From assembly GCA_024711125.1 (NCBI GenBank), contig JANJTM010000010.1, positions 1 to 64,000 on the forward strand: a DNA stretch of 64,000 bases, in the 5' to 3' direction. The stretch comes from Rhodothermales bacterium. Lineage in GTDB: Bacteria > Bacteroidota > Rhodothermia > Rhodothermales > UBA10348. How positions within the stretch are numbered: position 1 is the stretch's first letter; every line of letters starts with the position of its first letter. The notes beneath the pieces are model-generated. The model did not search any database and had not been told where the DNA came from. It worked only from the letters and a program-made list of their open reading frames with translations. Shown piece after piece: positions 10,411-38,943 of the stretch. Both the position numbers and the translations under genes were made by a program.

Positions 10411-10412
10411 CC

Positions 10413-20298: not shown

Positions 20299-20333
20299 CG
20301 TCCCGGCTCCCGCTGCCTCCACCCCAAGCCCCC

Positions 20334-21833: not shown

Positions 21834-22979
21834 ATGAACCACTCGTCCGTGCGCGCGGCCCTGGCCGCCCTCGCCCTGGCTCTCGGCGCCTGTTCGGCTC
21901 CCGAATCTCCCGTGGCCCCCGACGGCCTCAAGGAGGCCTTCGCCGGCCGATTTCTCGTCGGCGCCGCCATCAACGACTTCCAGGCGGCCGGCCGCGACTC
22001 GATGAGCGTGGCGATCGTGACCGCCGAATTCAACACGATCACCCCCGAGAACGTCCTGAAGTGGGAGGTCGTGCACCCGAAGCCCGATTCCTTCGCGTTC
22101 GATGCCGCCGACCGCTTCGTGGCCTTCGGCGAGGCTCACGGCATGTTCCTCGTCGGTCACACGCTCGTGTGGCACAGCCAGACGCCGCGCTGGGTATTCG
22201 AGCACGCCGACGGGTCGTCGCTGACGCGCGACGAGCTGCTCGCCCGGTTGGAAAACCACATATCGACCGTCGTGGGGCGATACAAGGGACGCATCAAGGG
22301 GTGGGACGTCGTCAACGAGGCCCTCAACGAGGACGGCACCCTGCGGGACACCCCGTACCGCCGCATCATCGGCGACGACTACCTGGTCAAGGCCTTCGAA
22401 TTCGCGCGGGCGGCCGATCCGGACGCGCAGCTGTACTACAACGACTACTCGCTGGCCAACCCGGCCAAGCGCCGCGGCGCCATCGCGCTGGTCCAGGGCT
22501 TGCAGGCGGCCGGCGTGCGGGTGGACGGCATCGGCGAACAGGGGCACTACAACCTCGACTGGCCGTCGGTCGCGCAGTTCGATTCGACGGTGGTCGAACT
22601 CGCTTCACTCGGCATGCCCGTGCACGTGACCGAACTCGACATCACCGTGCTTCCGAACCCGAACCGGACGCAGGGTGCCGACATCGCCGAGACCGCCGAG
22701 GCTCGCGCAGCGCTCGATCCCTACGCCGCGGGACTGCCCGACTCGGTCCAGTCGCTGCTGGCTGCGCGTTACGAAGGTCTTTTCCGCGTCCTGGCGGCGC
22801 GAGCCGACCTCGTCGAGCGCGTCACGTTCTGGGGAGTGCACGACGGGGCGTCCTGGCTCAACGGCTGGCCGGTGCGCGGGCGTACGAACTACCCGCTGCT
22901 CTTCGACCGGACCGGGCTGCGCAAGCCCGCCTACGACGCCGTGCGGGTCGTAGCCTCCGAGACGGCACCCAAACCCTGA
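21834..22979 (+). CDS. GH10 endo-1,4-beta-xylanase lipoprotein
   Basis: A 381-residue GH10 xylanase with a lipoprotein signal (LGAC, Cys20). Acid/base Glu162 in WDVVNEALNE, nucleophile Glu267 in VHVTELDITV; ENVLKWEVV, GHTLVWH and LYYNDYS are conserved. Residues about 272-305 form an extra loop before the last strands. It is the second GH10 of the locus and is about as different from the minus-strand one as paralogues with divided roles usually are. Its last 49 bases overlap the end of the convergent SGNH/TPR gene. It is last in the GH3-symporter-GH10 run. Confidence 0.95.
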   Translation: MNHSSVRAALAALALALGACSAPESPVAPDGLKEAFAGRFLVGAAINDFQAAGRDSMSVAIVTAEFNTITPENVLKWEVVHPKPDSFAFDAADRFVAFGEAHGMFLVGHTLVWHSQTPRWVFEHADGSSLTRDELLARLENHISTVVGRYKGRIKGWDVVNEALNEDGTLRDTPYRRIIGDDYLVKAFEFARAADPDAQLYYNDYSLANPAKRRGAIALVQGLQAAGVRVDGIGEQGHYNLDWPSVAQFDSTVVELASLGMPVHVTELDITVLPNPNRTQGADIAETAEARAALDPYAAGLPDSVQSLLAARYEGLFRVLAARADLVERVTFWGVHDGASWLNGWPVRGRTNYPLLFDRTGLRKPAYDAVRVVASETAPKP

Positions 22980-24901
22980 GCCGTCGAGTCGGCCGAAGCC
23001 GCCTCGTAGAGTCGGAGCGCGCCGGGATGGGCGGGCCTCGCCTGCAGGATCTGCTGAGCGGCGCGCATGGCGTCGCTCCGCCGACCCAGGCGGATGTAGG
23101 CTACGCCCAGGTCGTACAGCACGTCCGGATCGTCAGGCGCCAGCGTGCGGGCTTCTTCCAGCGGCTGCAGCGCTTCCTGGGCGCGGTTCATCCTCGTCAG
23201 GGTCTGGCCGGTCAGCCGCAGGGCGTCGACCGACGGCTCGCGCGCGCCGGCGGCCAGGAAGAACCGCAGGGCCTCGGGCAGTCGCCCCTGCCGGGACAGG
23301 ACATGTCCCGCCATGAGCATCGGTGCACCCCGGTAAGGGTATTCCTGGACGAGTGCCAATGCGACCTGGAGGGCACGTGACAGGTCGCCCCGTTCTTCGT
23401 ACAGCTGTCCGAGGCGTCCCATCGCCACATCCCAACCGAGCCGCCCGGCCATCACTTCCACGGCCAACGCATCCACCGCACCGGCCACGCGGAACGTGTC
23501 CTCCACGGTCGTCGGTCGGAACGGCCACGAATTCAGGATGCGTCGAACATGGAGCGACGCGGTCGTCGAGTCGAGCTCGGTGAGCAGCACCTCGCGACGC
23601 GCGGCAATCAGCGGAATCCGGCGCTCGGGTGTGCCCAGGAGACCGGTTTCGGCGAGCGCGCGGAAGAACGCGTCGGCCATGATGAACTGGCCGTCGACGT
23701 TCGGATGAACATGCTCGAGCAGCAACTCCGAGCCCAGCGTTCCGCCCGGGGCGATCGACCGGAGTGCGGATTCCGTTTCGACGACATGGGCGCCGCAGCG
23801 GGCCGCCACGTCACGGATCGCAGCGTTCATGGAGGCCGGAGCGCGGAACGGAAGCGCATCCAGTTCGATCGCGGCGCGGTATTCGGCCCGGGCCTCATCC
23901 GCCCGGCCCAGCCGGTGCAGCAACGTCGCCCGCTCGAACCGCGCGATAGCCGACGAAGTATCCACGGCTACCCAGCGATTCACGACGGGGAGTGCCGCGG
24001 CAAGGTCTCCGGATTGTGCCACCGCAGCCACTTCGGCCCGTGCGGCCGCCCAGGCCGTGGAATCCGTTCCTTCGGCGAGGACCGAGGCCAGGGGCGCCAC
24101 GTCGCGTTCGTTGGAGAACAGCGTCCCGACGAATACGGGTATGCCCGCCTCCTGGTAGGCGCAGAGCACGGCGGACAGGTGCTCCCGGAATCGGTCCGCG
24201 GCCTGGGTCCGGACCCGAGAGCCGGGCGGCACGAGTCGATCCCGGGCCAGCTCTTCCATCAGCGTCGGGTCCTGGGAGCCGTTCCGGGCGTCGACGGGGC
24301 CGGCGAGCCGGGCCCATGCGGCCCGAACCAACTGCACGGTGCGCAGTCCGTCGAGCGCGAAGTACACTCTTCGCAGGACATCCAGGCCTCCGAACGACAC
24401 GGACGAAGCCACCCCGAAGATTCCGTAGAACTCGTTGTGCCCCGCGTAGACCAGGACGGCATCGGGCTTCTGGGCCACGATCTCGGCCACCTGGTCGACC
24501 AGGACGGCCGAACTGACCGCGTCTACCGCCGTGTTCACGACTTCCACGTCCCGGGACGGGAAGGCCTGGCCGATGCGCTGGAGCAGGATCCGCGAGAACG
24601 TCGCTCCATGACGATACGGGAATCCGGCGGCGGTCGATTCGCCCTGCACGAAGATGCGAAGCGTCTCGTCCCGCTTTTCGGCACGGAACGCGTCGTGGGG
24701 CGGGCCGGGAACCGACCGGGTGCGCGCGAACCAGCGCTCGGCCACGTCCGGATTGGGAAGGAGAAAATCCTCGGCTCGGGGCGCCGGAACGAACAGCGGA
24801 TATGCGTTCCCGAACCCCGCGACTCGAAGCCCGATCTCGAGGAGAACGAAAAAGACCACCGGGATGGCCGCCATGGCCATCACCATCCAACGCTTCTTCA
24901 T
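22931..24901 (-). CDS. Membrane-anchored SGNH hydrolase-like protein with TPR repeats
   Basis: A 656-residue protein. A transmembrane segment (about 5-25) is followed by an SGNH/GDSL-like domain: RIFVQGESTAAGFPY with Ser89 (GES instead of GDS), VYAGHNEFYG with Asn156, and LLEHVHPNVDGQF with His399. The candidate catalytic Ser, Asn and His are thus kept. A TPR-like stretch (about 295-350) interrupts the domain and further TPRs fill about 540-640. The ATG at 24901 is chosen because it starts the membrane helix; 69 upstream residues in frame look non-coding. It overlaps the upstream isomerase gene by four bases. A carbohydrate or lipid esterase acting at the membrane is possible; substrate unknown. 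Confidence 0.75.
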   Translation of the reverse strand: MKKRWMVMAMAAIPVVFFVLLEIGLRVAGFGNAYPLFVPAPRAEDFLLPNPDVAERWFARTRSVPGPPHDAFRAEKRDETLRIFVQGESTAAGFPYRHGATFSRILLQRIGQAFPSRDVEVVNTAVDAVSSAVLVDQVAEIVAQKPDAVLVYAGHNEFYGIFGVASSVSFGGLDVLRRVYFALDGLRTVQLVRAAWARLAGPVDARNGSQDPTLMEELARDRLVPPGSRVRTQAADRFREHLSAVLCAYQEAGIPVFVGTLFSNERDVAPLASVLAEGTDSTAWAAARAEVAAVAQSGDLAAALPVVNRWVAVDTSSAIARFERATLLHRLGRADEARAEYRAAIELDALPFRAPASMNAAIRDVAARCGAHVVETESALRSIAPGGTLGSELLLEHVHPNVDGQFIMADAFFRALAETGLLGTPERRIPLIAARREVLLTELDSTTASLHVRRILNSWPFRPTTVEDTFRVAGAVDALAVEVMAGRLGWDVAMGRLGQLYEERGDLSRALQVALALVQEYPYRGAPMLMAGHVLSRQGRLPEALRFFLAAGAREPSVDALRLTGQTLTRMNRAQEALQPLEEARTLAPDDPDVLYDLGVAYIRLGRRSDAMRAAQQILQARPAHPGALRLYEAASADSTAQGLGAVSEATTRTAS

Positions 24902-26613
24902 GGCGTGCGAACCGATTCCATGAGCGATCGGAAGAGCGTCGTATCCACACTCACGGGGACGATCGACAACAGGCTGTCGGTCATGCGCTCCTCCGGGAGC
25001 AGTTGTTCGAGCACCGACCGGATATCCTCTCTCCTGTCCTCCAGCCTTGTGTACTCCAGGTCGCGCCGGAGCACCCGCAACACGTAGCAGCTTCCGTCCA
25101 CCGAGCAACCGACGACCGTCCGGTCGAGGGGGGCCCTGCGCACGTAACCCAGCGCATCGGATCGCACGTCGGCGCCCGCGACCTCTTCGAATCCACGGAT
25201 CGTCGCCGGATCCGCGCCCTGCTCGAGGATTGCCTTGACCGAGTCAGCGGCCCCGACCGAGGCGGTACGCACGATCCAGTAATCGGCGAGGGCGCGCTCG
25301 AGCTTGCGGTAGCCAAGTCGCTCGAATGCTTCGGCGACCTCGTCGTCCGTGGGCTGCACCCGCCGCGATGCACGCAGCGCGGCGCGCAGGCTCGAAGCAA
25401 GCCATGAGTCGGCGGCAAACCGCACGGATTCACGCACCAGTTCGGCGTCGTCGTACCCCGCTTTGACGCCCCGGCTCGCCAGGACCTCGTTTCGCAGCGC
25501 ACGACCGACCGCCGCCATCGTTCGATCGCGGACCTCGTCGTACGGCAATTCGGGCAGCCATCGCAGGAAGTCGCCGGCGGTGAACTCGGCCCGGGTACCG
25601 TCGAGGTCGAGCGTCGCCAGCACGGTTTCCGGCTCCAGCCGATCGCGCAGCTCGTCGATTTCGCCTTCCGAGATCCGAACCCTCGCGCGTTGGGACGCCT
25701 CCGCCCCTGGATCCGTGCCCGACGGCCGCACGACCGCTGCGTTCATGGCCTCCACGAGCGCGCGCGCCCCCGCCTCGTCCACGCGGACGTCCAGGCTTTC
25801 CATCAACTCCCTCACGAAGCGGTCGCCCTCGAGCCGATTGCGACGGACTTTCTCGCGCCCCTCGATGCCCGCGCGGTGCATCATGAAATCGTACTCCGTC
25901 AGGAGCGGATTCGTGAGGCGATCCTCCACGCGAAGCACGTGCCAACCGTATCGGGATCGGACGGGTTCGGAATACGATCCCACCGGGAGCGCATAGGCCG
26001 CCTCGGCGACCGCGTCATCGAGGTCCCAGTAGGTCGCGTAGCCCAGGTACCCGGCCAGCGAATCGTCCGGCGCGGTGCCGTACAGGTCCCTCGCCAGGTC
26101 CATGAAATCGAAACCGGCGCGCAGCGCGTCGTATGCCGCGCGCGCCGCATCGCCGTCCCGGAAGAACAGGTGTCTCAGGGCCACCCGCTGTCGACTTCGC
26201 TCGTAGGCCTGCCGCACCTCGGCCTCGGTCAGCGGACCCATGGACCGTGCGAAGGCCTCCTCGAAGTACTTGGCCCCTACGGCCAACCGCCGGTTGCGGT
26301 CGACCAGCGACTCGAACTCGGCCGATCGATCGAGCCCGAGCTTCCGGGCCTCCGTCGCCAGGATCATGTCGCGGACCAGCCGATCCAGGTGGCGGTAGCG
26401 CTCTTCCGGAGTGTCGTTCCGGCCGGTCGCCATGATGTACTCCAGGAACGACTGGTTGAACCGCCCGACGGTCAAGTCACGACCGTCGACCGTGGCCAGC
26501 GCCCGCATCGTGAGCGCCTCTTCATCGGGACGGGATCGGTGCCAGACGATCACGGCGATCGTCGTCACGGCGAGGCCGAGAGCGATCCAGGCAGGGGTAG
26601 CGCGCGAAGACAT
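24898..26613 (-). CDS. Membrane-anchored PpiC/SurA-type peptidyl-prolyl isomerase
   Basis: A 571-residue protein with an N-terminal membrane anchor (about 8-25) and a periplasmic region. A SurA/PpiD-like helical segment (about 40-130) precedes a parvulin domain (about 140-245) with VALRHLFFRDGDAA, GYLGYATYWDLDDAVAEAAY and VRSRYGWHVLRVEDR. The C-terminal 300 residues are helical with a weaker repeat of the pattern, possibly a second, degenerate chaperone module. ATG 26613 is chosen; 12 upstream in-frame residues lack support. Such proteins assist folding of exported and outer-membrane proteins. Its operon partner is the SGNH/TPR protein. Confidence 0.8.
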   Translation of the reverse strand: MSSRATPAWIALGLAVTTIAVIVWHRSRPDEEALTMRALATVDGRDLTVGRFNQSFLEYIMATGRNDTPEERYRHLDRLVRDMILATEARKLGLDRSAEFESLVDRNRRLAVGAKYFEEAFARSMGPLTEAEVRQAYERSRQRVALRHLFFRDGDAARAAYDALRAGFDFMDLARDLYGTAPDDSLAGYLGYATYWDLDDAVAEAAYALPVGSYSEPVRSRYGWHVLRVEDRLTNPLLTEYDFMMHRAGIEGREKVRRNRLEGDRFVRELMESLDVRVDEAGARALVEAMNAAVVRPSGTDPGAEASQRARVRISEGEIDELRDRLEPETVLATLDLDGTRAEFTAGDFLRWLPELPYDEVRDRTMAAVGRALRNEVLASRGVKAGYDDAELVRESVRFAADSWLASSLRAALRASRRVQPTDDEVAEAFERLGYRKLERALADYWIVRTASVGAADSVKAILEQGADPATIRGFEEVAGADVRSDALGYVRRAPLDRTVVGCSVDGSCYVLRVLRRDLEYTRLEDRREDIRSVLEQLLPEERMTDSLLSIVPVSVDTTLFRSLMESVRTP

Positions 26614-26679
26614 CCGGTTCGGTGCGGTCGGGTCAGCGGTCCAACGCACGGGACGGCGATCGGTGTCCGGATCGGGCCG

Positions 26680-28788
26680 TCAACGAACGACCACGATCGG
26701 CACCGTCCGCGTTCCCATGGCCGAGACGAATCGGGCGAAATACACGCCGGGCGCCAGGTTGGCGGTATCCAGGGCCACGTCGTGGCTTCCGGGGCCGAAA
26801 AACGCCTCCGAACCGCCCGTCGGCGTCCTGCGCCCCAGCATGTCGTACAGTGCCAGTTCGCCCTGCATCCCCTGTTCCATGCGTACCCGAACGTTCACGG
26901 AACTGCCGGCCGGATTCGGCCACACTTCCAGCCCGGGTGACGAAACGCCCTCCGGCCCCGTCTCTCGTCCCGTGGACAGCGGCAACCCGCCCGGCGTCAG
27001 GTGCGCGGCGACCGCCCCGGCGAGGTAGGCGAGCGAACTCTGCCAGTTGATGGCGATTTCGTTCGAAGCGTAGCTGCAGACGCTGTCCACGTACGACTTG
27101 GCCGGCGCGTTCGGGGGATACGGATAGGAGCACCCGTCCTCCCGACCCGCGTTGGGCCCTCCGACCAGGAGCCCGGGAACCGGGCGGGCGATGCCGTCGC
27201 TTTCCGACGGGCGATGGTGGGGAAAGAGCGGAACCTTGTCCCCGTGATCGGTGACGAACGAGTACCCGGTCGCGTTGCGGCCGAGCAGGTAGTCCAGGTT
27301 GGCCACCGCGAAATCGAGGTAGCGGGCGTCCCGGGTCCAGCGATAGGCCGCGAGCGTCATGTAGGCCTGGTTGGCCACGTAGGAATTGCTGCCCCAGTAG
27401 AAGTCGTTCGTCGCGTTTCCGATGCCCACGCCGTACGGGTTGTTGCGGCGGCCCTCGACGAGTTGGTTGACGAGGCCGAGAAGGTGGCGGCGCAGTTCCG
27501 TGGTGTCGAGCACCGCTGCCGCCGCGTGACGGTGATGGGCGAAACTGACCGTGGCCACCGAGGCCACGTTCGGCCAACCGGGCACCGAGGCGTTGCCCGA
27601 GACCGACGGCGGATACATGTAGAGGAAGCTGTCGGCACGCGTCGTCAGGTACAACTCGGTGGCCGCCCAGCGGAATTCGTCCAGGAAACTCCCGTCTCCG
27701 TATTCGCCCGTGTTGATGTCCGGGTCGAAGGCTGCGTTCATGGCCGATTGCGAGTACCGGTCCCCGGGGTTCGCCTGCGCCCAGTTCCAGGCCCGGAACG
27801 ACGCGTCCAGCAGCGAGTCGGCCAGCCCCGGAACGGTCGCCTCGAAGGGTCGGAATACGCGCGCGCCCAACGCGGCCACGGCCGCGAAGTCCAGCGCGGC
27901 CGGCGTCGACTTCTGCACGACCCACCGCTGGTCCGTCGCCGCGCTCGGCCGGACCATGGGCTCGAAATTGGCGGTCGTGAGCTTGTGGTACAGCCCCCCG
28001 TCCGCCGGATCCTGCATGGTCATCATCCAGCGAAGGTTCCAGAGCACCTCGTCGAGCAGGTCGGGAAGCGTATTGGAGCTCTCGGGAATGTTCGTCGCAA
28101 AGACGTCGAAATACGCGGGATAGTGCTCGTAGAGCTGCAGCAGTTGCCCGGTCGTGATCCCGGAGTTCACGACGTACTTGTTGTAGTCGCCCGCGTCGTA
28201 CCACCCGCGGGGCGACGCAATGACCGTGCCCTCGGGCCGGGAGGCGGACGCCGCCGAAGCGTGCACCTTGACCGAGGTATCCGGGTGTCCGGCTGCGCGT
28301 GTCCACTGGCCGGCGTACTGCGCGGCAAGGCGGGTCGACGCCCGCTGGAAGTAGAATCCCTTGACCGCGGCGACGGCGACGCGCTGCAGCGGTTCGACCG
28401 CAATCTCGAACGCGTAGGAGGTTCCCAGCCCGTCGACCTCCATCACGTAACTGCCCGGCTCCTGGAGAGCCGAGAAGTCGGCCAGGCGCACGTTCTCCTG
28501 TGCCGACACCCACGTGCGCGCGACTGCCATAGTGCCCTCGTACACCGTGCGTACCCCGTCGGGGGTACGGATGCGGAAGGCATTCGTGGGCGCGTCGACG
28601 ACGACCGCCTGCTTCACCGCCGTCGGGAAGAACCCGACCTGGTTCAACCGGATTGCCGTGGTCGTACCCTGCGCAGACGCGGCCGCGGGAATCGAACACA
28701 GCAGGATCAGGCACGCCAGCGTCCGCCGCACGGATGCTGCACCGATCGCCTCGGACTTCCGGAACATGGGTCGGTCTTCGTGTCGCAT
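26680..28788 (-). CDS. GH9 endoglucanase with T9SS sorting domain
   Basis: A 702-residue secreted cellulase: signal peptide to about residue 39, an Ig-like CelD N-terminal domain (about 43-130), and the GH9 (alpha/alpha)6 barrel (about 135-600). Catalytic Asp198/Asp201 lie in RGWYDAGDYNKYV and the general acid Glu577 in YASNEIAINWQ. Residues about 620-702 form a T9SS type A sorting domain (EVWPNPAGSSVNVRV ... LYDMLGRR ... GVYFARFV). ATG 28788 follows a GGGGG stretch; an in-frame upstream Met would lie within the terminator hairpin, and ATG 28767 is the alternative. It is last in the surface-glycan block, just after an intergenic terminator. Confidence 0.92.
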   Translation of the reverse strand: MRHEDRPMFRKSEAIGAASVRRTLACLILLCSIPAAASAQGTTTAIRLNQVGFFPTAVKQAVVVDAPTNAFRIRTPDGVRTVYEGTMAVARTWVSAQENVRLADFSALQEPGSYVMEVDGLGTSYAFEIAVEPLQRVAVAAVKGFYFQRASTRLAAQYAGQWTRAAGHPDTSVKVHASAASASRPEGTVIASPRGWYDAGDYNKYVVNSGITTGQLLQLYEHYPAYFDVFATNIPESSNTLPDLLDEVLWNLRWMMTMQDPADGGLYHKLTTANFEPMVRPSAATDQRWVVQKSTPAALDFAAVAALGARVFRPFEATVPGLADSLLDASFRAWNWAQANPGDRYSQSAMNAAFDPDINTGEYGDGSFLDEFRWAATELYLTTRADSFLYMYPPSVSGNASVPGWPNVASVATVSFAHHRHAAAAVLDTTELRRHLLGLVNQLVEGRRNNPYGVGIGNATNDFYWGSNSYVANQAYMTLAAYRWTRDARYLDFAVANLDYLLGRNATGYSFVTDHGDKVPLFPHHRPSESDGIARPVPGLLVGGPNAGREDGCSYPYPPNAPAKSYVDSVCSYASNEIAINWQSSLAYLAGAVAAHLTPGGLPLSTGRETGPEGVSSPGLEVWPNPAGSSVNVRVRMEQGMQGELALYDMLGRRTPTGGSEAFFGPGSHDVALDTANLAPGVYFARFVSAMGTRTVPIVVVR

Positions 28789-28796
28789 GGAACCCC

Positions 28797-28839
28797 CAGA
28801 AAAGGAAAAGGGGGTGGGAGCCGAGGCCCCCACCCCCTT
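28797..28839 (-). terminator. Rho-independent terminator between CBM protein and GH9 genes
   Basis: On the minus strand an 11-bp perfect stem (arms at 28829-28839 and 28808-28818, AAGGGGGTGGG and its complement) with a ten-base loop is followed by TTTTCCTTTT. It lies 14 bases after the stop of the CBM protein gene and only nine bases before the GH9 start codon. GH9 therefore appears to depend on read-through. Confidence 0.85.
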
Positions 28840-28852
28840 CATCCATCCACCA

Positions 28853-31459
28853 TCAACGCACCAACAACATCTTGCGCGACTGGACGAAGTTGCCCGACCG
28901 CAGCTGGTAGACGTACACGCCGCTCGTCAGCTTCGATGCGTCGAAACGCACCTCGTACGAGCCGGCCGTCTGATCGCTGTCAACCAGGGTCTCGACTTCC
29001 TGTCCCAGGATGTTGAAGATCTTCAGCGATACCCGCCCGGTGGCCTTCACGTCATAGCGGAAGGTCGTGACCGGGTTGAACGGGTTCGGGTAGTTCTGGT
29101 GCAGCGCGTAGTCGCTGGGCACCTCGGCCGATACCGCCTCGACACCCGTCGCATACGCATCCCCGATCCAGGTGTAGAACCAGTTCCGGGGCGACTGCCA
29201 CGAATTGTCGTTGTTCTCCGGCGAGTAGGTAAGGATCGACTCGCGGTTGCGGCCGCCCGGAGCCGTGTCGTCGTCCATGAAGACGATGTCGAGCGGAACG
29301 CGGATGCCGCTCATCGGCACGAACTGGTCGAAATCGGCCTTCTTCATCGCCGACAGCAGGATCTTGCCCTCGGTGACCCAACCGCCGCCGCGCGGACCGA
29401 AGAAATACATGCCGTCGCCGTTCAGCGAGACCGGGCTCGTGAGCTGGTCGCTGCGCAGGTCCTGCTTGTACATGTAGAACTTGTAGTCCGGCTCGGCGCC
29501 GTTCTCGAAGCCCACGTGTTCGCCCATGCGACCGTCGTAGAGACCGATGTACAGCTCGGCACCGTCGTACATCCAGCGGTCGCTGGTTTCGTCGTCCGGA
29601 ACCGGGTCGTAGACGTCATCGCTCACGACGAACGCGAAGTACAGCGCTTCGCTGTCCATCGCGAGGTACGCGTCGGCCGACAGGTCGGCCGCGTTGTTCG
29701 GCGGAATCGATCCGGCCGAATGCCCGAAGAGCGTTCCGACCTCGAGACGGATCGGCGTGATGCCGGCCCAGTCCCCGATCGCACCGTCGGCGGCAAAGCC
29801 GGTCGGCGTACCGAGGTGGATTGTCGCGATACCCTTGGCATTGTTCGGAACCGCCGACGGATGAATCGTCGCCGGACCCACGTTGCCGACGCGGTCTACC
29901 GCCACGATAGCGTAGTAGTACGTCAGCGAGTTGTTGCGCACCGGGTAGAAGATCGGGTGCACGGCGGCTTCCACGCCGCCTTCCACCTCGGCGATCAACG
30001 CGACACCCGCGGCCGTCACGTCCGTGATCGGCGTTTCGCTCGCATAGATCCGGTAGGTCTCATCTTCCTCGCCCGGCACGTCGATCCAGCTGATGATGTT
30101 CTGGAAATCGCCCTGCGAAACGGAAAGCCCGGTAACCGCCTCCGGAGCCGTATTGTCGGTTTCCTGGAAGCCGTAGCCCGTCATGCGGTCGAACAGGATC
30201 GAGCCGGTCGTAGTGTTGCCCTGGCCCGTGTACAGCACGAACTGCACCTGCGCGATGGCCGACTGGTCGAGTACGCCGTCCTGGGCGCATCCGCACCAGC
30301 TCGGGATCGTCATGTCCTTGAACGTGGCCGTGTAGCGGCGCCAGTTGCCCGACACGTCGGTGAGTACGTCGGTCCGTTCCGACGCCCAGAGTTCGCCGCC
30401 CGTCTCGTGTACGCGCAGACCGAACGTCATGCCGGTGCTCGACGGCGTCAGGACCTTGTAGAACACCGTGATGCCGGTCCGGGCATTCATGTCGCCGAAG
30501 GTGGCCGCTCCGCCTTCCGGCTGGAAGTAGAGATCGAGTTCACCGCCCCAGCCCTGGTCGCCGACGATCGAGTAGTCGACCTTCAGGGAGTTGTTGCCGA
30601 GGATCGCGTCGGTCGAGTTGGTAAGCGTGTACGTGCCCGCGTTCGACTGCTTGCTGTGGCTGGTGGGCATGCCCTCGAAGTCGGCCATGAGGTTGTAGCG
30701 CACGCCCGACACGTGGAAGTTGTCCCACACGATCGTCGTCGTGCGAACCGGGTCGCCGGCCACGACCTCAGACACGAACTCGAGCTGGAAGCCCGCGATC
30801 TTGTCGAGGTCCAGGGCGTTGTTTCCGGTCTGACCGCTCCAACCGGGGCGGTTGAAACCGGTCGTGCTGCAGCAGCCGGGGATGGGATCGAGCGGGGTCG
30901 TCACCATCGTCCAACCCGGAAGTGCCTGGTACATGTCGCGCGACTCGGCGTACCAGTCCTCGAACTGGCCCGCGGCCGTATTGTCCGACGCCTCGTTGAT
31001 CTTGAACCGGAAACCGCTCGAGTGCGCGGCCGGGCTCAGGGTGTTGAACCACAGGTTGAGGTGGGTGAAGTCCGAGAAGTCGTAGTACGTCCCGGCATCC
31101 ATCAACTCCTGCGGCAGGAAGTGCTGCAGCGCCGCCGAGCCGCCCCACGAGTTCGGGGTGTCGAGCGCCCAGTCCATCCACATCGCGTCCTGTCCCTCCT
31201 GGGGAACGCCACCGAAGCCAACGAACGAGTCGATTCCGAGGTAGTTCGGGTCGGCGTCGTCTTCCGGCGTCGTTCCGTAGGTTCCCCAGAAGCTCGTATC
31301 GGCTTCCACCGATTCGAAGCCGTGGATGAGGGGATAGTTCGGCGCGCCGCCGTGGGTCGACGGGCCTGTCTTGAAGAGCAGGTGCTGCGCCGATGCGCTC
31401 GACATCCCCAGCACCGCCAGGGTGACGAGGAAGAGCGCCTTCTTGTACCAGCCGTTCAT
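28853..31459 (-). CDS. Secreted multi-domain glycan-binding protein with T9SS sorting domain
   Basis: An 868-residue exported protein with a signal peptide (cleavage near residue 24, ASAQ). Two jelly-roll, CBM-like domains (about 45-270 and 270-445; each starts with an FE-type motif, LIHGFESVEAD and LMADFEGMP) are followed by a fibronectin III domain (about 455-545). Next is a CBM9-like domain (about 560-770, DAYLAMDSEALYFAFVVSDD), then a T9SS type A sorting domain with YALHQNYPNPFNP (about 786-868). There is no hydrolase motif, so it is probably a surface glycan-binding protein. The start is supported by GGAGG five bases upstream. It sits between the PorV-like barrel and GH9. Confidence 0.82.
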   Translation of the reverse strand: MNGWYKKALFLVTLAVLGMSSASAQHLLFKTGPSTHGGAPNYPLIHGFESVEADTSFWGTYGTTPEDDADPNYLGIDSFVGFGGVPQEGQDAMWMDWALDTPNSWGGSAALQHFLPQELMDAGTYYDFSDFTHLNLWFNTLSPAAHSSGFRFKINEASDNTAAGQFEDWYAESRDMYQALPGWTMVTTPLDPIPGCCSTTGFNRPGWSGQTGNNALDLDKIAGFQLEFVSEVVAGDPVRTTTIVWDNFHVSGVRYNLMADFEGMPTSHSKQSNAGTYTLTNSTDAILGNNSLKVDYSIVGDQGWGGELDLYFQPEGGAATFGDMNARTGITVFYKVLTPSSTGMTFGLRVHETGGELWASERTDVLTDVSGNWRRYTATFKDMTIPSWCGCAQDGVLDQSAIAQVQFVLYTGQGNTTTGSILFDRMTGYGFQETDNTAPEAVTGLSVSQGDFQNIISWIDVPGEEDETYRIYASETPITDVTAAGVALIAEVEGGVEAAVHPIFYPVRNNSLTYYYAIVAVDRVGNVGPATIHPSAVPNNAKGIATIHLGTPTGFAADGAIGDWAGITPIRLEVGTLFGHSAGSIPPNNAADLSADAYLAMDSEALYFAFVVSDDVYDPVPDDETSDRWMYDGAELYIGLYDGRMGEHVGFENGAEPDYKFYMYKQDLRSDQLTSPVSLNGDGMYFFGPRGGGWVTEGKILLSAMKKADFDQFVPMSGIRVPLDIVFMDDDTAPGGRNRESILTYSPENNDNSWQSPRNWFYTWIGDAYATGVEAVSAEVPSDYALHQNYPNPFNPVTTFRYDVKATGRVSLKIFNILGQEVETLVDSDQTAGSYEVRFDASKLTSGVYVYQLRSGNFVQSRKMLLVR

Positions 31460-31537
31460 GTGATCCTCCGATGGATGGTGGATTGGCTTTGGGGAGCGAG
31501 TCCCCGCGTTGATGGTATTCGCGCTTGAGCCCGAAGC

Positions 31538-32587
31538 TCAGAACGTGACGCGGAAGTCGAGCATCGATACGTTGCCGAGATCGACGAACGGGATGTACCC
31601 GTAGTCGGCCCCGACCCGCACTCCGCTCAGCGTCATGTCGACCCCCGCGCCGAAGGTCAGGTGGGAATACGTGTTGTCCAGCGGCATGTCCTTGTAACCG
31701 ACCCGGAGATTCAGGGCCGCCGGCGAGACCGTGAAGCGCACTTCCGATCCCATGTCCATGTTGAGTCCGTTGTCGTTGGTCTGGTGCGCGTCGGCCAACA
31801 GCTCCCAGGCCACGAGGTCCGTCGTGACGAGCGGAAGGGCTAGGCCGAACTTGAACGACAGGGGCAGGTCCCATCCGTTGGTCTCGAGCGTGGCCGGAAG
31901 CGCGTCGTTCGAACCCGAGCTGGTTTCGTCGATGTCGACGAAGACCCGGGAGTTGACTCCGGACATCTCCATCAGGCCCCCGAAGTTCATGATCGAGGCC
32001 GCGATGCGCATGCCGTTGAAATAGTCGGTCAGCAGCACGAACCCGATGTCGAATGCGAACGTCGACGCATTCATGTCGTAGATGCGCTGTCCGACGTACT
32101 TGCCCGTGCCTCCGATGAAGAACCGGTCGGTCAGCGGCTGTGCGTAGGAGAGACCGATCATCAGGTCGGCCGCACCGAAGGTCTCCCCGGTGCCCTCGGG
32201 CAGTTCCACGGTGCGCACCTTCATGCGCCCGTAGTCCATCTGCGCGAGGCTGATGCCGATGACTCCCGAGCGCGTGGCCGGGATGACCATGCCGAAGGCA
32301 TCGTAATTGATGCCGACCAGCCAGTCCGTATGGCTGAAGAACAGCGAACCTTTCTTCCCGTCGGTGCCCGCCCGGGCGGCGCCCGCCGGGTTCCACAGGA
32401 GCGCGTCGGCCCCCGTCGCGGTTGCGGTGTACGCATGGCCGAGGGCGCTGCCGCGCGCACCCGACCCGATCGTCAGGAACGTGGCGGCCGACGTCGCGAC
32501 GCGACTCTGGGCGATGGCCGGAGCCGTAACCCCGGCGGTGAGCGCGAGCGTCGCGACGAGGGCGAGGGTTCGCAGGGAGGTCGTCAT
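31538..32587 (-). CDS. PorV/PorQ-family outer-membrane barrel protein
   Basis: A 349-residue outer-membrane protein with a signal peptide (about 1-27, TAPAIAQS). The motif LTIGSGARGSALGHAYTA, then ALLWNPAG, then a run of amphipathic beta strands is the PorV/PorQ (UPF0164) pattern. PorV shuttles or anchors T9SS cargo at the outer membrane. ATG 32587 is preferred over ATG 32659 because it begins the signal peptide, though neither has a clear Shine-Dalgarno. It lies between two genes for T9SS-sorted proteins, suggesting it is a dedicated partner of them rather than the housekeeping PorV. Confidence 0.82.
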   Translation of the reverse strand: MTTSLRTLALVATLALTAGVTAPAIAQSRVATSAATFLTIGSGARGSALGHAYTATATGADALLWNPAGAARAGTDGKKGSLFFSHTDWLVGINYDAFGMVIPATRSGVIGISLAQMDYGRMKVRTVELPEGTGETFGAADLMIGLSYAQPLTDRFFIGGTGKYVGQRIYDMNASTFAFDIGFVLLTDYFNGMRIAASIMNFGGLMEMSGVNSRVFVDIDETSSGSNDALPATLETNGWDLPLSFKFGLALPLVTTDLVAWELLADAHQTNDNGLNMDMGSEVRFTVSPAALNLRVGYKDMPLDNTYSHLTFGAGVDMTLSGVRVGADYGYIPFVDLGNVSMLDFRVTF

Positions 32588-32676
32588 GGTTCGCTGCGGA
32601 ACACGGCCCGTGGCCGCTACCGAAAAAGTGGCTGTCGTCTGGAGCGAGGGAGCATTCATCGTCGTGCGCCGGTCGA

Positions 32677-35600
32677 TCACTTGATGATGGCGAACTTGTC
32701 GACGAATTCCCCGACGCCGGGGGCTTCGACGTGGTACAGGTAGATGCCGTAGGCGACATCCTGCCCATTCTCGGTCTTCAGATCCCACCACGCCGCGCCG
32801 TTCGACCCGGCCCCGTCATGGAGCAGGGTGCGCACGAGTTCGCCGCGCACCGTGAAGATCTTGATGGTGCACTGCTCGGGCAGGTTGATGAACTGCAACT
32901 GCCGCGGGCCGCGGCCCTGGATCTGCGTACGTGGCTCCCACGAGGCCGCCACGACGTACGGGTTCGGAACCACCGCGATGTTCTTCATCTCCTCCTTCGC
33001 CAGTTCCGTGTCCACGTAGCCCGAGCGCATCGTGAACTGGAAGTAGTCGTTGCGGGAGAACGGACGCGTCGGCATGATCCGGATCTTGTTGCCCGCGACC
33101 GGCATCACGCTCTCGCCGAATGCCGTGAACCGAACGATGTAGCGGAATCGGAACACGCCCAGTGCCGGATCGGCCACCACCAACCCGTCCTCGTGCCATT
33201 CGAAGGTTCCGTTCTGGTTGAGGTCGGCCGGGAAGATGGCGCAGGCCTTGTTCTGCGTCACGTTCCGACACCAGACCGGAAGCTGCTGGCTGCGGAGGTA
33301 CCCCTGGTACCGGTTCGGCGGACTGGTGTAGATCGAGTCGGCGAACGTCAGCGTGTATTCGAACGGCGACGGCAGCGCGCGCTGCGACTCGTCGACTTCG
33401 ATCGCGGCAAACCAGTTCGTAGTGTACCCGGGCACGTTGGCCGGAAGCGGCGAATAGACCTTCTGGCCCTCGGTGTTCGTCCCCTCCCAGCCGGTAAGCG
33501 CCCGGTTCACGCCGATCTCGTCAGGGTGGAGCGACACGATGAAGCCGTCGATCGCGGCGGTTTCGCTCACCAGGGGCTGCCTCTTGATGAGCACCTTGTT
33601 CTCGGTGACGTTGCGCAGCTCGAAACCGGTCGTCTCGTACAGGTCGCGGAGCGCCCTGGTCGTGTCGAAGAAAGAGACCCGGTACACGACGTCGGGGTTG
33701 ATCTGCCCTTCGTTGACCACGTCCACTTCGATCGAGCCCGTCCCGATGCCCTCGGTCACCTGCGAGAGGTCCTCGTTCGTGTCGGCGTAGCGGAAACCGG
33801 CCGTGCGGGCGCGCGGCGTCACGATGGCGACGTTGGGCGTGAAACCACGCACGTTACCGGCGGCATCGACCGACACGTTGAACGAGTTTTCCTGCGGATC
33901 GACCGGCGCGGCGTCGGGATTGTTCGACGTCGGACCGGGGACGAAGCCGCGGTCGTACGCGACGAGCGCGTAGTAATACGTCTTGCCGTTGATGACGTCG
34001 CGATCCACGTAGCTGAACTCGAGGCCCGTATCGGTGCCGAGGTCGAACCACGCCGTGTTCTCGAGCACCGGCACGGTGCCCTTGATCCCGTTCCGGAGGT
34101 CCCACTGCGCGATCGGCTTGTTGTAGGTCGGCACGCCGTACGCGTTGGTCACGAGGCGCGCATCCGAGAGCAGCGGGTCGGTACCCTTGTACAGGCGATA
34201 CCCTTCGAAGTCGAATTCCTGCGTGAAACGGTCGTACGAGGCCGTCGACAGCGTATCCCAGGACAGGATCACGAATCCGTCGCCCACGTCGGCCTTGAGG
34301 ATCGGCGCGATCGGCGGCTGCGCGAAACGGTAGTCGGCGTTGTAGATGCGCTGGACGGTCTGGCGATTCTTGAAGAAGTCCTGCGAATCCTGACCGAAAA
34401 GCCAGGCCGTGGAGAAGAAGTCGGTCTTGTTGTTGCCGAGTTCGACCGGACCCGACGAGAAGTTCAGGAACGGCTCGACGTCGGCGACGAACTGGTTCGG
34501 CTCCTGCCCGAGCGCGAACTGCGAATCCCGGATTCGCGCCCACATCCACGTGTCGTCACGCAGGTTGTCGCCCGATTCGTAGTACGGACGCGAGCTGAGG
34601 TGGAATCCCGTCAGACCGATCTGGTCGCTCTCGTCGACGTCCAGTTCGTCGAAGTTGGGCTCACGGATGGTCGGAATACCGTCGGCCTCTCCGTTGTCCG
34701 GGCCCGGATACCCGAGATCGTACGGCCCGAGCCCGTCGCGTCCGAAGTCGTCGTTGACGAGTTCGCCCGGGTCGTACTGGCCGTTCCCGTTGGCATCGGC
34801 GAAGCCCACCCAGTCGAGATTCTCGTCGCCGGTCCACCATACGCCGCGCCGGAAGGCCGGCCGTTCTTCCAGCGGACCGTGGAACTCGAGGAATCGTACC
34901 ATGTCGTAATTCGCCTGCACGTACGCCCGGATGGCGTCCTGACCCTCGATCCGGATGCCCGGCCCACCGAAACGCTGTTCGTCGGTGATGCCGTCCTCGT
35001 CGTTGTCGAGACCGTCCACGGCGTTGGCCGGCGATTCGAGGAACGCGAAACCGGTGTAACCGAGCGTATAGGTGCCACCCGACTGCCGCTGCCCGATGCC
35101 ATCCTGGTCCCAGCCGTACGCGATGTCGAGCTGCGGGTTGAATGCCGCGTTTTCGTCGCCCTCCTCGTTACCGAGTCCGTAGTCGACGAACTGGGCGAAA
35201 TAGAGACCGGTCTTCTCGGGTCCGCGCGGAAGGTTGACGATCTCGCCGTAGTTGCGGGCGCCCTTGTTCGTGATCCGGTAGATCAGGAACATGGTATCCT
35301 CGGCGAGGATGTTGGCCCACTGCAGGATGCGCACGTTCATCTGCAGGCCCATGCCGCCCATGGTCGAGTCGGCCGGGTCCGGGTAGAAGATGCCGAACTG
35401 GCTGAACGGGCGACCGGTACGCTCGTCGATGAGATAATTGTAGTCGAGGAAGTCGTCCATCACGTAGAACGACTCGAGGTCGGCCGAAAACACCCCCTTT
35501 CCGCCCATGCCGTTCCATGCACGGGGCCATCCGGAATCCTCCTCGTACAGCTTGTCCGGCCAGAATTCGGGCCACGAAGACGGGTCGTCGGACAGCGCCG

Positions 35601-36105
35601 GCGTCGGTTCACGCAGGTTGGTGATGGGATTGCGACGCAGTGGATTGTGGAATCCGGGCAGCGGCAGCCAGCCCCAGACCGTTCCGTACGGCCCGACGTA
35701 CGTGCCCGCGTCCCGGTACTTCACGCTGACCGGGTTGATTATGGTGTCCGGCGTACCCGGTCTCCAGTAATCGTAGGGCGCCTGGGCCCACTTGGCGCGT
35801 TCGCCGTGTACGCGCCCCGAAACCAGGACCGCGATGCCGTCGATGTGGCGGCCGCCGATCGAGCGGGGCCAGATTCCGAACGGGTTGTCGTTCCAACGCG
35901 ATACTTCGCCGTGGTTGCGGAAGTTCGTCTCGATCAGGTTTCCGTCGAGGACGCCTCGCGCGATACTTGTTTCTGCGCCGCGGTAGGTATCCGGGATCGT
36001 CGACCCCTCCTGCGCCCGGACCGCGCCGGCAGGAACGAGGAGAACGAAGAGCAGGATCGCCGCCCAGGGTGCGGACGCGGAGCGGGAGAGGCTCAGGGAC
36101 TGCAT
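32677..36105 (-). CDS. Large secreted T9SS-type surface protein paired with TonB receptor
   Basis: A 1142-residue protein with a signal peptide (cleavage near residue 32, AVRAQ). No catalytic motif was recognised. Seen: an N-terminal region rich in Trp/Tyr/Pro (about 35-330); EF-hand-like Asp-rich loops (NDEDGITDEQ near 365, DANGNGQYDPGE near 435, NQNGTFEWHEDG near 965); fibronectin III-like pieces around 590-740; and a C-terminal FlgD/T9SS-like sorting domain from about 1043 (VVPNPYVVAASW ... IFTVRGELVRTL ... GIYLYHVE). It is 63 bases downstream of the TonB receptor, the position SusD has in other loci, but has no SusD/RagB features and no lipobox. Confidence 0.75.
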   Translation of the reverse strand: MQSLSLSRSASAPWAAILLFVLLVPAGAVRAQEGSTIPDTYRGAETSIARGVLDGNLIETNFRNHGEVSRWNDNPFGIWPRSIGGRHIDGIAVLVSGRVHGERAKWAQAPYDYWRPGTPDTIINPVSVKYRDAGTYVGPYGTVWGWLPLPGFHNPLRRNPITNLREPTPALSDDPSSWPEFWPDKLYEEDSGWPRAWNGMGGKGVFSADLESFYVMDDFLDYNYLIDERTGRPFSQFGIFYPDPADSTMGGMGLQMNVRILQWANILAEDTMFLIYRITNKGARNYGEIVNLPRGPEKTGLYFAQFVDYGLGNEEGDENAAFNPQLDIAYGWDQDGIGQRQSGGTYTLGYTGFAFLESPANAVDGLDNDEDGITDEQRFGGPGIRIEGQDAIRAYVQANYDMVRFLEFHGPLEERPAFRRGVWWTGDENLDWVGFADANGNGQYDPGELVNDDFGRDGLGPYDLGYPGPDNGEADGIPTIREPNFDELDVDESDQIGLTGFHLSSRPYYESGDNLRDDTWMWARIRDSQFALGQEPNQFVADVEPFLNFSSGPVELGNNKTDFFSTAWLFGQDSQDFFKNRQTVQRIYNADYRFAQPPIAPILKADVGDGFVILSWDTLSTASYDRFTQEFDFEGYRLYKGTDPLLSDARLVTNAYGVPTYNKPIAQWDLRNGIKGTVPVLENTAWFDLGTDTGLEFSYVDRDVINGKTYYYALVAYDRGFVPGPTSNNPDAAPVDPQENSFNVSVDAAGNVRGFTPNVAIVTPRARTAGFRYADTNEDLSQVTEGIGTGSIEVDVVNEGQINPDVVYRVSFFDTTRALRDLYETTGFELRNVTENKVLIKRQPLVSETAAIDGFIVSLHPDEIGVNRALTGWEGTNTEGQKVYSPLPANVPGYTTNWFAAIEVDESQRALPSPFEYTLTFADSIYTSPPNRYQGYLRSQQLPVWCRNVTQNKACAIFPADLNQNGTFEWHEDGLVVADPALGVFRFRYIVRFTAFGESVMPVAGNKIRIMPTRPFSRNDYFQFTMRSGYVDTELAKEEMKNIAVVPNPYVVAASWEPRTQIQGRGPRQLQFINLPEQCTIKIFTVRGELVRTLLHDGAGSNGAAWWDLKTENGQDVAYGIYLYHVEAPGVGEFVDKFAIIK

Positions 36106-36168
36106 GGAGAATCGCTCGATGTGGAGCGCCGCGGGTGCGGCGGGACGTGCGGTTACGCCCGAGGGCTG

Positions 36169-38943
36169 CTAGAAATCGTAGCGGACGCCGAGCGTCACGC
36201 GACGCGGGGCCGAAAACCAGCCCTGGTTGAAGAAGTACTCGTCGAGCGTGTTCACGCCGCCGACCTGCGTGCCGGCACGGCGGAACTGCTCCTCGGTGAC
36301 CGACTCGTCGCCGCGACCGGTATCCGAGTAGACGCCGTAGTGAATCATCGCGTCGAACAGGTTGTCCACCTGGAGCAGCGCCGAAAGGCCCTTCAGGAAC
36401 TGCGGACGATAGAAGAAGCGCAGGTCCGAGGTGAACGAGGCCGGCCGGTTGCCGTTGTTCTTGATATAGGACGTGATGAAGTTGCGGATCGTCGTGTACG
36501 GCGCGCCGGTCTGGTAGCGGTTGATCAGCGTCAGCGAAAGCGCCGCGCTGGGCGCATACGTGATCGAGTTGGTCAGCACGTGGCGGCGGTCCCAGTCGAG
36601 CCGGACGAGCGTAAGGATGTCTTCCTGGCCGCTCTGGAAGCGATCGAAGGCTTCGGTCGGATTCGATGCCGTTCCGTTGGCGAACTGGAGCGTGTAGTCG
36701 AGATCCCAGCTGACGCCGCCGACCGGGCGCTGGAAGAGCGACAGCGTGATGCCGCGCGAGGTGCCGACGTCCCGGTTTATGTAGCGCACGAAGAAGTTGG
36801 TCGTGAGCACGTCACGCCGGATCTCGACGCCCGTGAGGTTCCGGATGTCCTTCGAGAACAGGGTCAGTTCGAGGCCCATGGACTTCGTCAGTCCCTGCTG
36901 CAGGCCGATTTCGAAGTGCAGCGTACGCTCCGGATCGAGCGCCGGGTTGCCGAACTGGGTCTGCGACGAAGCCGGGTTGACCTCGTAGTGCGGATTCGTG
37001 AAGAGGATCGACAGCTGCGGCGTCTGGAAGAAGAGCCCGGCAGAGAACCGGATCACGCCTTCGGCCGAAATCGGGAACGCGATGCCCACGCGCGGGCTGA
37101 GCTGCCAGCGGATCGGGCCCTTCTCGCGGTTGTACAGCGAGTCGCCCGGCACATCGGGGTTGGGCACGTACAGCAGGTTCGCCTGCGTCCAGTCGAAGGG
37201 AATCTCGTAGTCCGGGTTGAAGAGGTCGAACCGCAGCCCCGCGTTCACGATCAGGTTGCGGAATTCCATCTTGTCCTGGAGATAGGCCGCGATCTCGTAG
37301 GGCCGGGTCTCGAGCGTGTCACGCCCGAAGATGTCGACCGACGGCATCGGCTGCCACTGCGTACGCGGACCGATCTCGATGCCGAACCCCCCGTTGTACA
37401 GGTGGTGGAGCCGTGCCAGCACGCCCGCCTTGACCTGGTGCACGCGATCGAGCTGGTTCGTGTAGTCGGCCAGGAACGTGTGGGTCTCGGTCATCTCGTT
37501 CCCGTACCACAGGTCGTTGCCCCCGACGTCGAAGGCGTTGGGACCCTCGAGATTGCGCAGCTGGGAGGAAACGAGACGGGTGTCCAGGATCCCGGTCGTC
37601 GAAAAATCCGACGGCAGGTCGAAGAGACGTGATCCGCCCTTGTCCCGGAGATACGAGTAGTTGATGTTCGAGAACGACGTCGCTCCGTGCGTCCACTTGA
37701 GGCCGAGAAGGTGGAACTGGCTGTTGAAGAAGTACTTGTTGACGCCGTCCGGCACGTACTTCGACTGCTGGCTGAACCCGCGCCCGTCGCCGTCCTGGAG
37801 GATCAGGTTGTACTCCAGCTTCACCATCGGGGTTAGCTTGTAGACCAGCGTGCCGTTGAAGGAAAGCCGCTCGTTGCGGCTCGGCGCGAAGGACTGGTCG
37901 CCGGTCGATGCGATGAACCAGGTGCTCGGATTGCCGGAGTTCAGGTTCATCGAGGAGTCCGTCGGCGCGAAGAGGCGGCGTCCGATCGTGTGCCCCTCCT
38001 CGTACCAGTACCGGCCCGTGAAGCGGAAGCCCAGCTTTTCCTTGAGGATGGGTCCGCCGAGCGAAAGCTGCGCGTCCTGTCGCCCAGGGAATCCGGCGGC
38101 CTCGGTGTACGAAACCATTTCCGACGTGAAGTCGGACGCGCGAAGGCCGATGCCCGGATCGGCGAGGCGCTTGACGAATTCGAGTTCCCGACCGCTGGCG
38201 ATGGCGCCCAGCTCGGTCGACAGCGAGCCGGTCCACGCGTTGGGCACGTCCTTCGTGACGATGTTCACGACGCCCGACATCGCCTGGCCGTACTCGGCGT
38301 TGAAGACTCCCGAGATCACCTCGAGACCCGAGATCATGTTTTTCTCGACCTCGAACGCCGCCGAGTTCGAATACGGGTTGTTGATCGGAACGCCGTTGAC
38401 GAGGTAGGAAACCTCTCCCTGGCGCCCGCCGCGGAAGTGCCCGTCGACGACGCCCGCCTGCAGGTTGATGATCTGCCCGATCGAGACGACCGGGAGGGTG
38501 GCGATCTCGGCTTCGTCCACGAACGAGGTCGTCGTCGTGCGGTCCATCTGGACGATCGGCCGCTCGGCCACCACCACGACCTCTTCGCCCTCGTACACCT
38601 CTTCGCGCATCGAGGCGTTCACCGTCGTGGTCTTGTCGACGATGACCTGGACATTCTCGGTCCGGACCTCGGCGAATCCCACGAACCGGAAGACGACGGT
38701 GTACGTCCCCGGCTTGATGTCGATGATCTGGTAGTGCCCGTCGATGTCGGTCACCGTGCCCTGGGAGGTGCCCTGGATGAACACCTGGACGCCCGGCAGC
38801 CCGTCGCGGGTGCCTTCGATGGTGACCTCGCCGGCGATCTTGCCCGTGGTTCCGGGCACCTCGGCGAGGGCCGGGGCGGAGATCAGACAGAGGAGGAGCG
38901 CGGCGATCGCGCGCGTGGACGGAACGAGCGGCCGGTACAGCAT
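36169..38943 (-). CDS. TonB-dependent receptor with carboxypeptidase-regulatory-like N-terminal domain
   Basis: A 924-residue outer-membrane receptor: signal peptide (about 1-27), CarboxypepD_reg-like beta-sandwich (about 33-112, GLPGVQVFIQGTSQGTVTDI), a TonB-box-like stretch (EEVVVVAERP), plug (about 135-235, SYLVNGVPINNPYS ... VFNAEYGQAMSGVVNIVTK), then a 22-strand-type barrel ending in an aromatic residue (RRVTLGVRYDF). It imports an oligosaccharide or other large ligand using TonB energy. ATG 38943 is chosen because it begins the signal peptide. It heads the minus-strand block; a TAnnTTTG-type promoter and a LacI-type palindrome lie upstream. SusC-like, but no susD follows. Confidence 0.92.
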   Translation of the reverse strand: MLYRPLVPSTRAIAALLLCLISAPALAEVPGTTGKIAGEVTIEGTRDGLPGVQVFIQGTSQGTVTDIDGHYQIIDIKPGTYTVVFRFVGFAEVRTENVQVIVDKTTTVNASMREEVYEGEEVVVVAERPIVQMDRTTTTSFVDEAEIATLPVVSIGQIINLQAGVVDGHFRGGRQGEVSYLVNGVPINNPYSNSAAFEVEKNMISGLEVISGVFNAEYGQAMSGVVNIVTKDVPNAWTGSLSTELGAIASGRELEFVKRLADPGIGLRASDFTSEMVSYTEAAGFPGRQDAQLSLGGPILKEKLGFRFTGRYWYEEGHTIGRRLFAPTDSSMNLNSGNPSTWFIASTGDQSFAPSRNERLSFNGTLVYKLTPMVKLEYNLILQDGDGRGFSQQSKYVPDGVNKYFFNSQFHLLGLKWTHGATSFSNINYSYLRDKGGSRLFDLPSDFSTTGILDTRLVSSQLRNLEGPNAFDVGGNDLWYGNEMTETHTFLADYTNQLDRVHQVKAGVLARLHHLYNGGFGIEIGPRTQWQPMPSVDIFGRDTLETRPYEIAAYLQDKMEFRNLIVNAGLRFDLFNPDYEIPFDWTQANLLYVPNPDVPGDSLYNREKGPIRWQLSPRVGIAFPISAEGVIRFSAGLFFQTPQLSILFTNPHYEVNPASSQTQFGNPALDPERTLHFEIGLQQGLTKSMGLELTLFSKDIRNLTGVEIRRDVLTTNFFVRYINRDVGTSRGITLSLFQRPVGGVSWDLDYTLQFANGTASNPTEAFDRFQSGQEDILTLVRLDWDRRHVLTNSITYAPSAALSLTLINRYQTGAPYTTIRNFITSYIKNNGNRPASFTSDLRFFYRPQFLKGLSALLQVDNLFDAMIHYGVYSDTGRGDESVTEEQFRRAGTQVGGVNTLDEYFFNQGWFSAPRRVTLGVRYDF

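Follow-up and report, generated by a model that had tools for sequence, protein, structure and literature searches.

In the classic SusC/SusD system, SusD captures the glycan for SusC, and glycan uptake in the phylum is usually annotated via this pair. PorU and PorZ are type IX secretion system (T9SS) proteins with a retained C-terminal domain (CTD), and they are bound to PorV and PorQ (PMC10202324; PMC5562754). In the case of adhesins with a type B CTD, the T9SS substrate is accompanied by a cognate PorP/SprF shuttle barrel that decides its destination (PMC12618676). For the xylan locus of Rhodothermus marinus (Rmar_1067-1081), the published account gives Rmar_1070 as a TonB receptor and Rmar_1071, Rmar_1072 and Rmar_1073 as hypothetical proteins, of which Rmar_1071 and Rmar_1073 have a sorting domain, with LacI, GH10, GH67 and GH3 genes around the locus (PMC6987092).

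The window, i.e. the whole stretch of 64,000 nucleotides analysed here, comes from a Rhodothermales genome of 3.79 Mb (99.3% complete, 81 contigs), in which gene counts were obtained by profile searches. On its minus strand, five genes run from a TonB-dependent receptor through a very large surface protein (hereafter the giant) and a PorV/PorQ-family barrel to a CBM9/T9SS protein and a GH9 enzyme, and all five are located as the original prediction had described. The transcription unit extends past the GH9 gene to a SurA-like prolyl isomerase (24898-26649):

36169..38943, minus strand: TonB-dependent receptor, core gene 1 (CarboxypepD_reg, plug and barrel by profile matches), ATG at 38943
32677..36105, minus strand: giant surface protein of 1142 aa, core gene 2, with a signal peptide recognised by eye and without lipobox
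31538..32587, minus strand: PorV/PorQ-family outer-membrane barrel, core gene 3 (NF033709; PDB 6h3i, PorV, 4.8e-4)
28853..31459, minus strand: CBM9-bearing T9SS type A cargo protein (CBM9_1, 1.4e-7, and Por_Secre_tail)
26680..28842, minus strand: GH9 endoglucanase-type enzyme with CelD_N and a T9SS tag (GH9, 5.6e-79)
24898..26649, minus strand: SurA-like prolyl isomerase (profile match), beside the module in 62 relatives

The barrel starts at the signal-peptide ATG at 32587, and the listed open reading frame begins too early. The receptor matches the plug domain PF07715 (2.2e-6), and its translation, read by eye, contains a TonB-box-like EEVVVVAE. The receptor had been called SusC-like; this does not hold, as it scores 65.8 bits with TIGR04056 against a cut-off of 368.25, over the N-terminal CarboxypepD_reg/plug part only. 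Judged by the NCBIfam model, it is a generic TonB-dependent receptor and not a SusC. In the window genome no SusC scores above the cut-off, and profile searches with the two Pfam models PF14322 and PF07980 found no SusD anywhere in the 3.79 Mb, in agreement with the description of the run as lacking susD. The T9SS-tagged GH9 enzyme is likewise confirmed, while the CBM9 protein, described as having four domains, has one recognised CBM9 domain only. Neither of these two genes is a core member as had been supposed: most orthologous modules pass directly from the barrel to the isomerase, and GH9 and CBM9 are locus-specific additions. The SurA-like isomerase beside the module could be a chaperone that serves the giant or the barrels specifically.

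The receptor, giant and barrel recur as a triple, which is complete three times in the window genome (contigs C13, C72 and C20) and partial or diverged on contigs C73 and C25. A giant relative is present in 93 of 100 genomes of the order, one family being mostly without it, and a profile built from 45 giants matches 162 of 394 genomes of the phylum, 138 of them at full-length strength. We sampled 100 loci from the order, class and phylum, picked by their giant match. The giant is flanked immediately upstream by the receptor and immediately downstream by the barrel in 39 of 40 order loci, 19 of 20 class loci and 38 of 40 phylum loci, counts that give the share of giants inside a triple and not the share of receptors or barrels. 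The four exceptions are L073 and L169, with the order receptor-barrel-giant, L120, where the receptor is 1.7 kb off, and L156, at a contig edge. A set of 15 named records covers Rhodothermales, Balneola, KSB1 and unclassified Bacteroidetes bins. All of them have the receptor next to the giant, and 10 also have the barrel there; of the other five, four stop at a contig edge, and in one (L116) the giant is broken. The latter giant (L116:2770-6143) lies in two frames in one draft genome, reflecting a disruption or an assembly error.

Since the window genome contains 12 PorV-family genes and 29 plug domains by profile searches, random adjacency would be expected at ~1%, and chance does not explain the arrangement. 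Mirror trees were constructed for the 100 loci from 82 genomes, with 500 within-genome paralogue shuffles as the null. The tree correlations are 0.86 for giant and receptor, 0.77 for giant and barrel and 0.87 for receptor and barrel, and the maxima over the 500 shuffles are 0.72, 0.65 and 0.72, respectively. The real correlations exceed all 500 shuffles, which indicates that each copy was inherited as a unit. Therefore, a recurring three-gene module of receptor, giant and barrel is strongly supported. The original prediction had suggested a recurring, poorly described module and proposed a profile search for the giant with scoring of its neighbours. That search placed the giant beside the receptor and barrel in nearly all loci, with the exact arrangement in 96 of 100; the trees co-vary, and no paper describing the triple was found in the literature on PorV, TonB receptors, SusD and PULs, most subscription papers lying outside the coverage. 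The module is also much broader than first proposed.

Several variants of the arrangement were observed. At L033:9950-13869 (G000 contig C7), a receptor and a PorV-family barrel are adjacent and the giant is absent, giving a two-gene version. At L028:5215-11955 (G000 contig C73), a receptor, a 712-aa diverged giant with a weak profile match and a barrel are found; the protein is possibly a short giant relative. In L080, L081, L085, L086 and L087, the barrel is followed downstream by the gene of another giant-like protein, which is ~970-1050 aa long and more distantly related.

The giants are mostly beta proteins of ~1050-1300 aa, and the window giant has no Pfam family match. A lipobox is present in only 2 of 100 giants; therefore, they are not surface lipoproteins. 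The structure models divide the window giant as follows:

34327..35943, minus strand: N-terminal domain, residues ~55-593, beta-supersandwich-like model of moderate confidence
33799..34326, minus strand: FN3-like domain, residues 594-769 (Z about 7)
33025..33774, minus strand: Ig-like domain(s), residues 778-1027, the best-predicted part of the model (Z 9.0 to FlgL)
32680..32976, minus strand: PorZ/PorU-like C-terminal domain, residues 1044-1142 (Z 9.3 to PorZ, 8.3 to PorU)

The AlphaFold models, from an alignment of 15 rows, are of low confidence, with a mean pLDDT of 52 for the whole giant; the model of the N-domain (residues 33-601) has a pTM of 0.58. At a mean pLDDT of 55.7, the N-domain model superposes on cyclic glucan synthase over its beta-supersandwich (VIA-align Z 14.7, rmsd 3.5 Å over 234 residues). 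Other structure matches of this domain include cellodextrin phosphorylase, dextran dextrinase and GH116, with Z of 12-14.7 for the GH94/GH116/glucodextranase-type range, and nearly all of the matches listed are carbohydrate-active proteins of the supersandwich fold. Foldseek with only the N-domain as query found nothing below 1e-3, no sequence family match was found for the domain, and a sequence comparison of the giants with the PDB gave nothing significant (best PorU, E 0.056). SusD folds are absent among the structure matches of the giant, an absence that proves nothing by itself. The giant is not a SusD. As a lead of moderate strength, the models suggest that its N-domain is a beta-supersandwich of carbohydrate-enzyme type; the fold alone is no demonstration of sugar binding.

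The C-terminus of the giant had been described as of sorting type, which is correct only in so far as it matches the C-terminus of PorZ, since an ordinary type A tag is not what it carries. The PorZ model NF052228 matches 44 of 62 giants (2.3e-9 for the window giant), while the type A models TIGR04183 and PF18962 match 6 and 0 of the 62, respectively, the window giant being among those without a match. The neighbouring T9SS cargo proteins show the reverse pattern, with TIGR04183 in all 47 sampled and the PorZ model in three of the 47. PorZ and PorU are the top structure matches of the C-terminal part of the giant, and PorZ itself aligns to the giant over this domain only. By analogy, the giant is most likely a T9SS substrate with a PorZ-like CTD, and its retention is predicted. 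The likeness to the PorQ-PorZ pair, in which an uncleaved CTD sits on a PorV/PorQ-family barrel, thus concerns the CTD; the giant differs in its N-terminal architecture and in its pairing with a receptor within glycan loci, and genomes encode several giants in addition to the housekeeping PorV and PorQ-like barrels.

The third gene had been identified as a PorV/PorQ barrel, and it does belong to that family (NF033709, 151.9 bits against a cut-off of 90). However, it falls below both equivalog cut-offs (NF033710, 51.4 of 250; NF033711, 69.5 of 220), and according to these models it is neither PorV nor PorQ. Other genes of the window genome code for a canonical PorV (292 bits), a PorQ-like barrel and the T9SS translocon SprA (1943 bits). 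In the barrel tree, the module barrels lie apart from the housekeeping barrels, with the separating node lacking support. Domain-level mirror trees did not single out a pairing of CTD and barrel: the CTD, which is short, gives an r of 0.50 with the barrel, less than the 0.67 of the N-domain. The context supports a barrel dedicated to the giant. A dedicated PorV-like partner attaching T9SS proteins had been proposed; the dedication to the giant can be kept, but not a role in attaching T9SS proteins in general, because the neighbouring cargo is of type A (47 of 47) and a separate canonical PorV is present. In having a T9SS substrate gene paired with its own dedicated barrel, the module is like the type B adhesin and PorP/SprF pairs; unlike them, with their type B CTD and their role in adhesion or gliding, it combines a PorZ-like CTD with a PorV/PorQ-family barrel in glycan loci.

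The genes that surround the run in the window are the following:

21834..22979, plus strand: GH10 xylanase (profile match)
20058..21785, plus strand: MFS_2 sugar transporter (open reading frame, true start probably internal)
17152..17871, minus strand: GntR/FCD regulator (profile match)
14201..17155, minus strand: GH115, xylan alpha-glucuronidase family (profile match)
13137..14204, minus strand: another copy of GH10 xylanase (profile match)
11718..13130, plus strand: UxaC glucuronate isomerase (profile match)
8665..11708, plus strand: TRAP transporter DctQ and DctM, two open reading frames (DctQ start probably internal)
7881..8909, plus strand: PfkB-family sugar kinase (profile match)
5476..7167, plus strand: GH43, beta-xylosidase type (profile match)

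With two GH10, GH115, GH43, UxaC, TRAP, GntR, PfkB and MFS_2 genes around the run, the window locus is a glucuronoxylan locus. An open reading frame of 411 aa in it (18132-19367) has no Pfam or NCBIfam match. A GDSL/TPR protein is encoded at 22931-24901 of the window, and GDSL/TPR proteins occur near modules in ~15 other loci. In the window and its relatives, the receptor is clustered with a regulator, glycoside hydrolases and a sugar transporter, as in a PUL in the broad sense. Neighbour clustering of 108 loci found T9SS-tagged proteins in 106 and the prolyl isomerase in 62. LacI regulators accompany the module in 56 loci, and of the sugar ABC importer, the binding protein is encoded in 24 and the two permeases in 20 and 18. 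Further neighbours across the relatives are alpha-amylases (GH13), GH94 and GH130 phosphorylases and GH3. Many of the T9SS neighbours carry CBM20, CBM9, CBM4_9 or CBM48, and in isolated cases GH26 or GH16 is present; the CBM proteins differ between loci both in family and in the side of the module on which they lie. The window genome has four LacI regulators only, one of which lies ~3 kb upstream of the C72 receptor. The LacI regulators, ABC sugar importers, glycoside hydrolases and CBM-bearing T9SS proteins mark the triple loci as glycan loci, and the differing neighbour sets indicate that separate copies accompany starch, beta-glucan, mannan or xylan genes. A glycan-uptake role for the triple is supported by this context.

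The module thus resembles SusC/SusD in its TonB receptor with an N-terminal CarboxypepD_reg domain, in the adjacent gene for a partner surface protein and in being set in a PUL with a regulator, enzymes and an inner-membrane transporter. In contrast to SusC/SusD, the receptor fails the SusC model and a PorV/PorQ-family barrel is a fixed third subunit; unlike SusD, a lipoprotein of ~500 aa, the giant is a much longer, mostly beta protein of T9SS type. Among the 394 genomes of the phylum, 69 have both the giant and SusD, 69 the giant only, 139 SusD only and 117 neither; mutual exclusion of the two across the phylum was not found (Fisher p 0.46). At least five SusD genes are present in seven of the 138 giant-bearing genomes, but in 112 of the 139 genomes that have SusD and no giant. 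The original prediction that the giant replaces SusD fits the window genome, which is SusD-free; since 69 of the 138 giant-bearing genomes have SusD, however, the giant is no simple SusD replacement. In 29 SusD-bearing genomes, SusD lies within 5 kb of none of 57 giants and within 20 kb of three. Family f13 of the order, with mostly large, complete genomes, is without a full-length giant and has 3-5 or more SusD genes, which makes it a natural contrast group.

One of the three giants within 20 kb of a SusD belongs to genome G028, in which the gene order is LacI, receptor, giant, barrel, a further large protein, GH10, isomerase, SusC, SusD, GH67 and GH3, with the SusC/SusD pair ~10-13 kb from the giant. 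From this order, it looks like the Rhodothermus xylan locus, and G028 may be a Rhodothermus. Rmar_1070-1073 match, in order, the receptor, giant, barrel and following T9SS protein of the window, by a comparison of gene order and not of sequence; there a SusC/SusD pair comes after the triple, while the window genome has none. The triple is not recognised as a unit in the accessible part of that account (PMC6987092). It looks as if both systems serve one xylan locus in G028 and the triple alone does so in the window genome.

We put the probability that the receptor, giant and barrel form one outer-membrane glycan-uptake unit at roughly 0.55. In such a unit, all three proteins would be taken to the periplasm by the Sec system, and the giant would then cross the outer membrane by the type IX system, be caught through its CTD by its own PorV/PorQ-family barrel and stay uncleaved, as PorZ does on PorQ. 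Beside the TonB receptor, its N-terminal supersandwich domain would capture oligosaccharides, in the window probably glucurono-xylo-oligosaccharides freed by extracellular xylanases, and would pass them to the receptor, which is the job of SusD for SusC. Separate copies within a genome may serve different glycans. Export by the T9SS and anchoring on the barrel are proposed from the analogy with PorZ, the capture of oligosaccharides from the fold model together with the locus context, and contact between giant and receptor is presumed; a conserved operon need not mean a complex.

Other functions of the triple can be imagined. The giant might be a T9SS surface glycan-binding protein or adhesin, SusE/F-like, that holds the cell on the polysaccharide and is co-regulated with the receptor but lies outside the transport complex. 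We infer the receptor contact only, which leaves room for this reading, and neighbouring T9SS CBM proteins already do such work; however, the CBM proteins follow the receptor far less strictly than the giant, with its fixed place and its tree agreement, and we regard an adhesin as unlikely. A more doubtful suggestion is that the triple serves assembly or attachment, as a cassette in which a PorZ/PorQ-like giant and barrel dock or process the T9SS enzymes of the locus without binding sugar. The PorZ-like CTD, the PorV/PorQ-family barrel and the T9SS cargo beside nearly every module would suit such a cassette, but PorZ matches the CTD only, the N-domain model resembles carbohydrate-enzyme supersandwiches, and a separate PorV and PorQ-like barrel are already in the genome.

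The remaining two readings concern the receptor, and both seem to us very improbable. Heme and siderophore receptors occur among its weak family matches, so that a metal, a cofactor or a peptide might be what the unit imports, with the sugar genes as mere cluster neighbours; yet genes for LacI, sugar ABC importers and phosphorylases are found at this place again and again across genera, with glycan specificities that differ by copy. Even less probably, the receptor exports the giant with help from the barrel, for which the export of the protease PopC by Oar in Myxococcus is a precedent (PMC6434023). Here, too, a TonB-dependent receptor adjoins a large secreted protein, whereas the T9SS-type C-terminus of the giant, the SprA in the genome and the sugar-uptake context of the locus argue against it.

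The glycan-uptake unit, if extended to all lineages in which it occurs, would represent a second class of TonB-powered glycan importer in Rhodothermales, Balneolales, KSB1 and further lineages of the phylum, with a T9SS-exported supersandwich protein on its own PorV/PorQ-family barrel doing the work of SusD, and with the several copies in a genome each suited to another glycan; we consider the odds for this broader proposal to be even. Should the triple prove to be a glycan importer, loci of this kind will have been overlooked in large numbers in Rhodothermales, Balneolales and related groups, and genomes free of susD can now be searched, with the triple as a clear locus marker. The T9SS would in that case also have a new use, namely the assembly of a lasting component of an import complex. 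The triple also allows a direct genetic test in Rhodothermus. It appears that, in a whole group of environmental bacteria, plant and storage sugars are imported by a three-gene kit, instead of or beside SusC/SusD.
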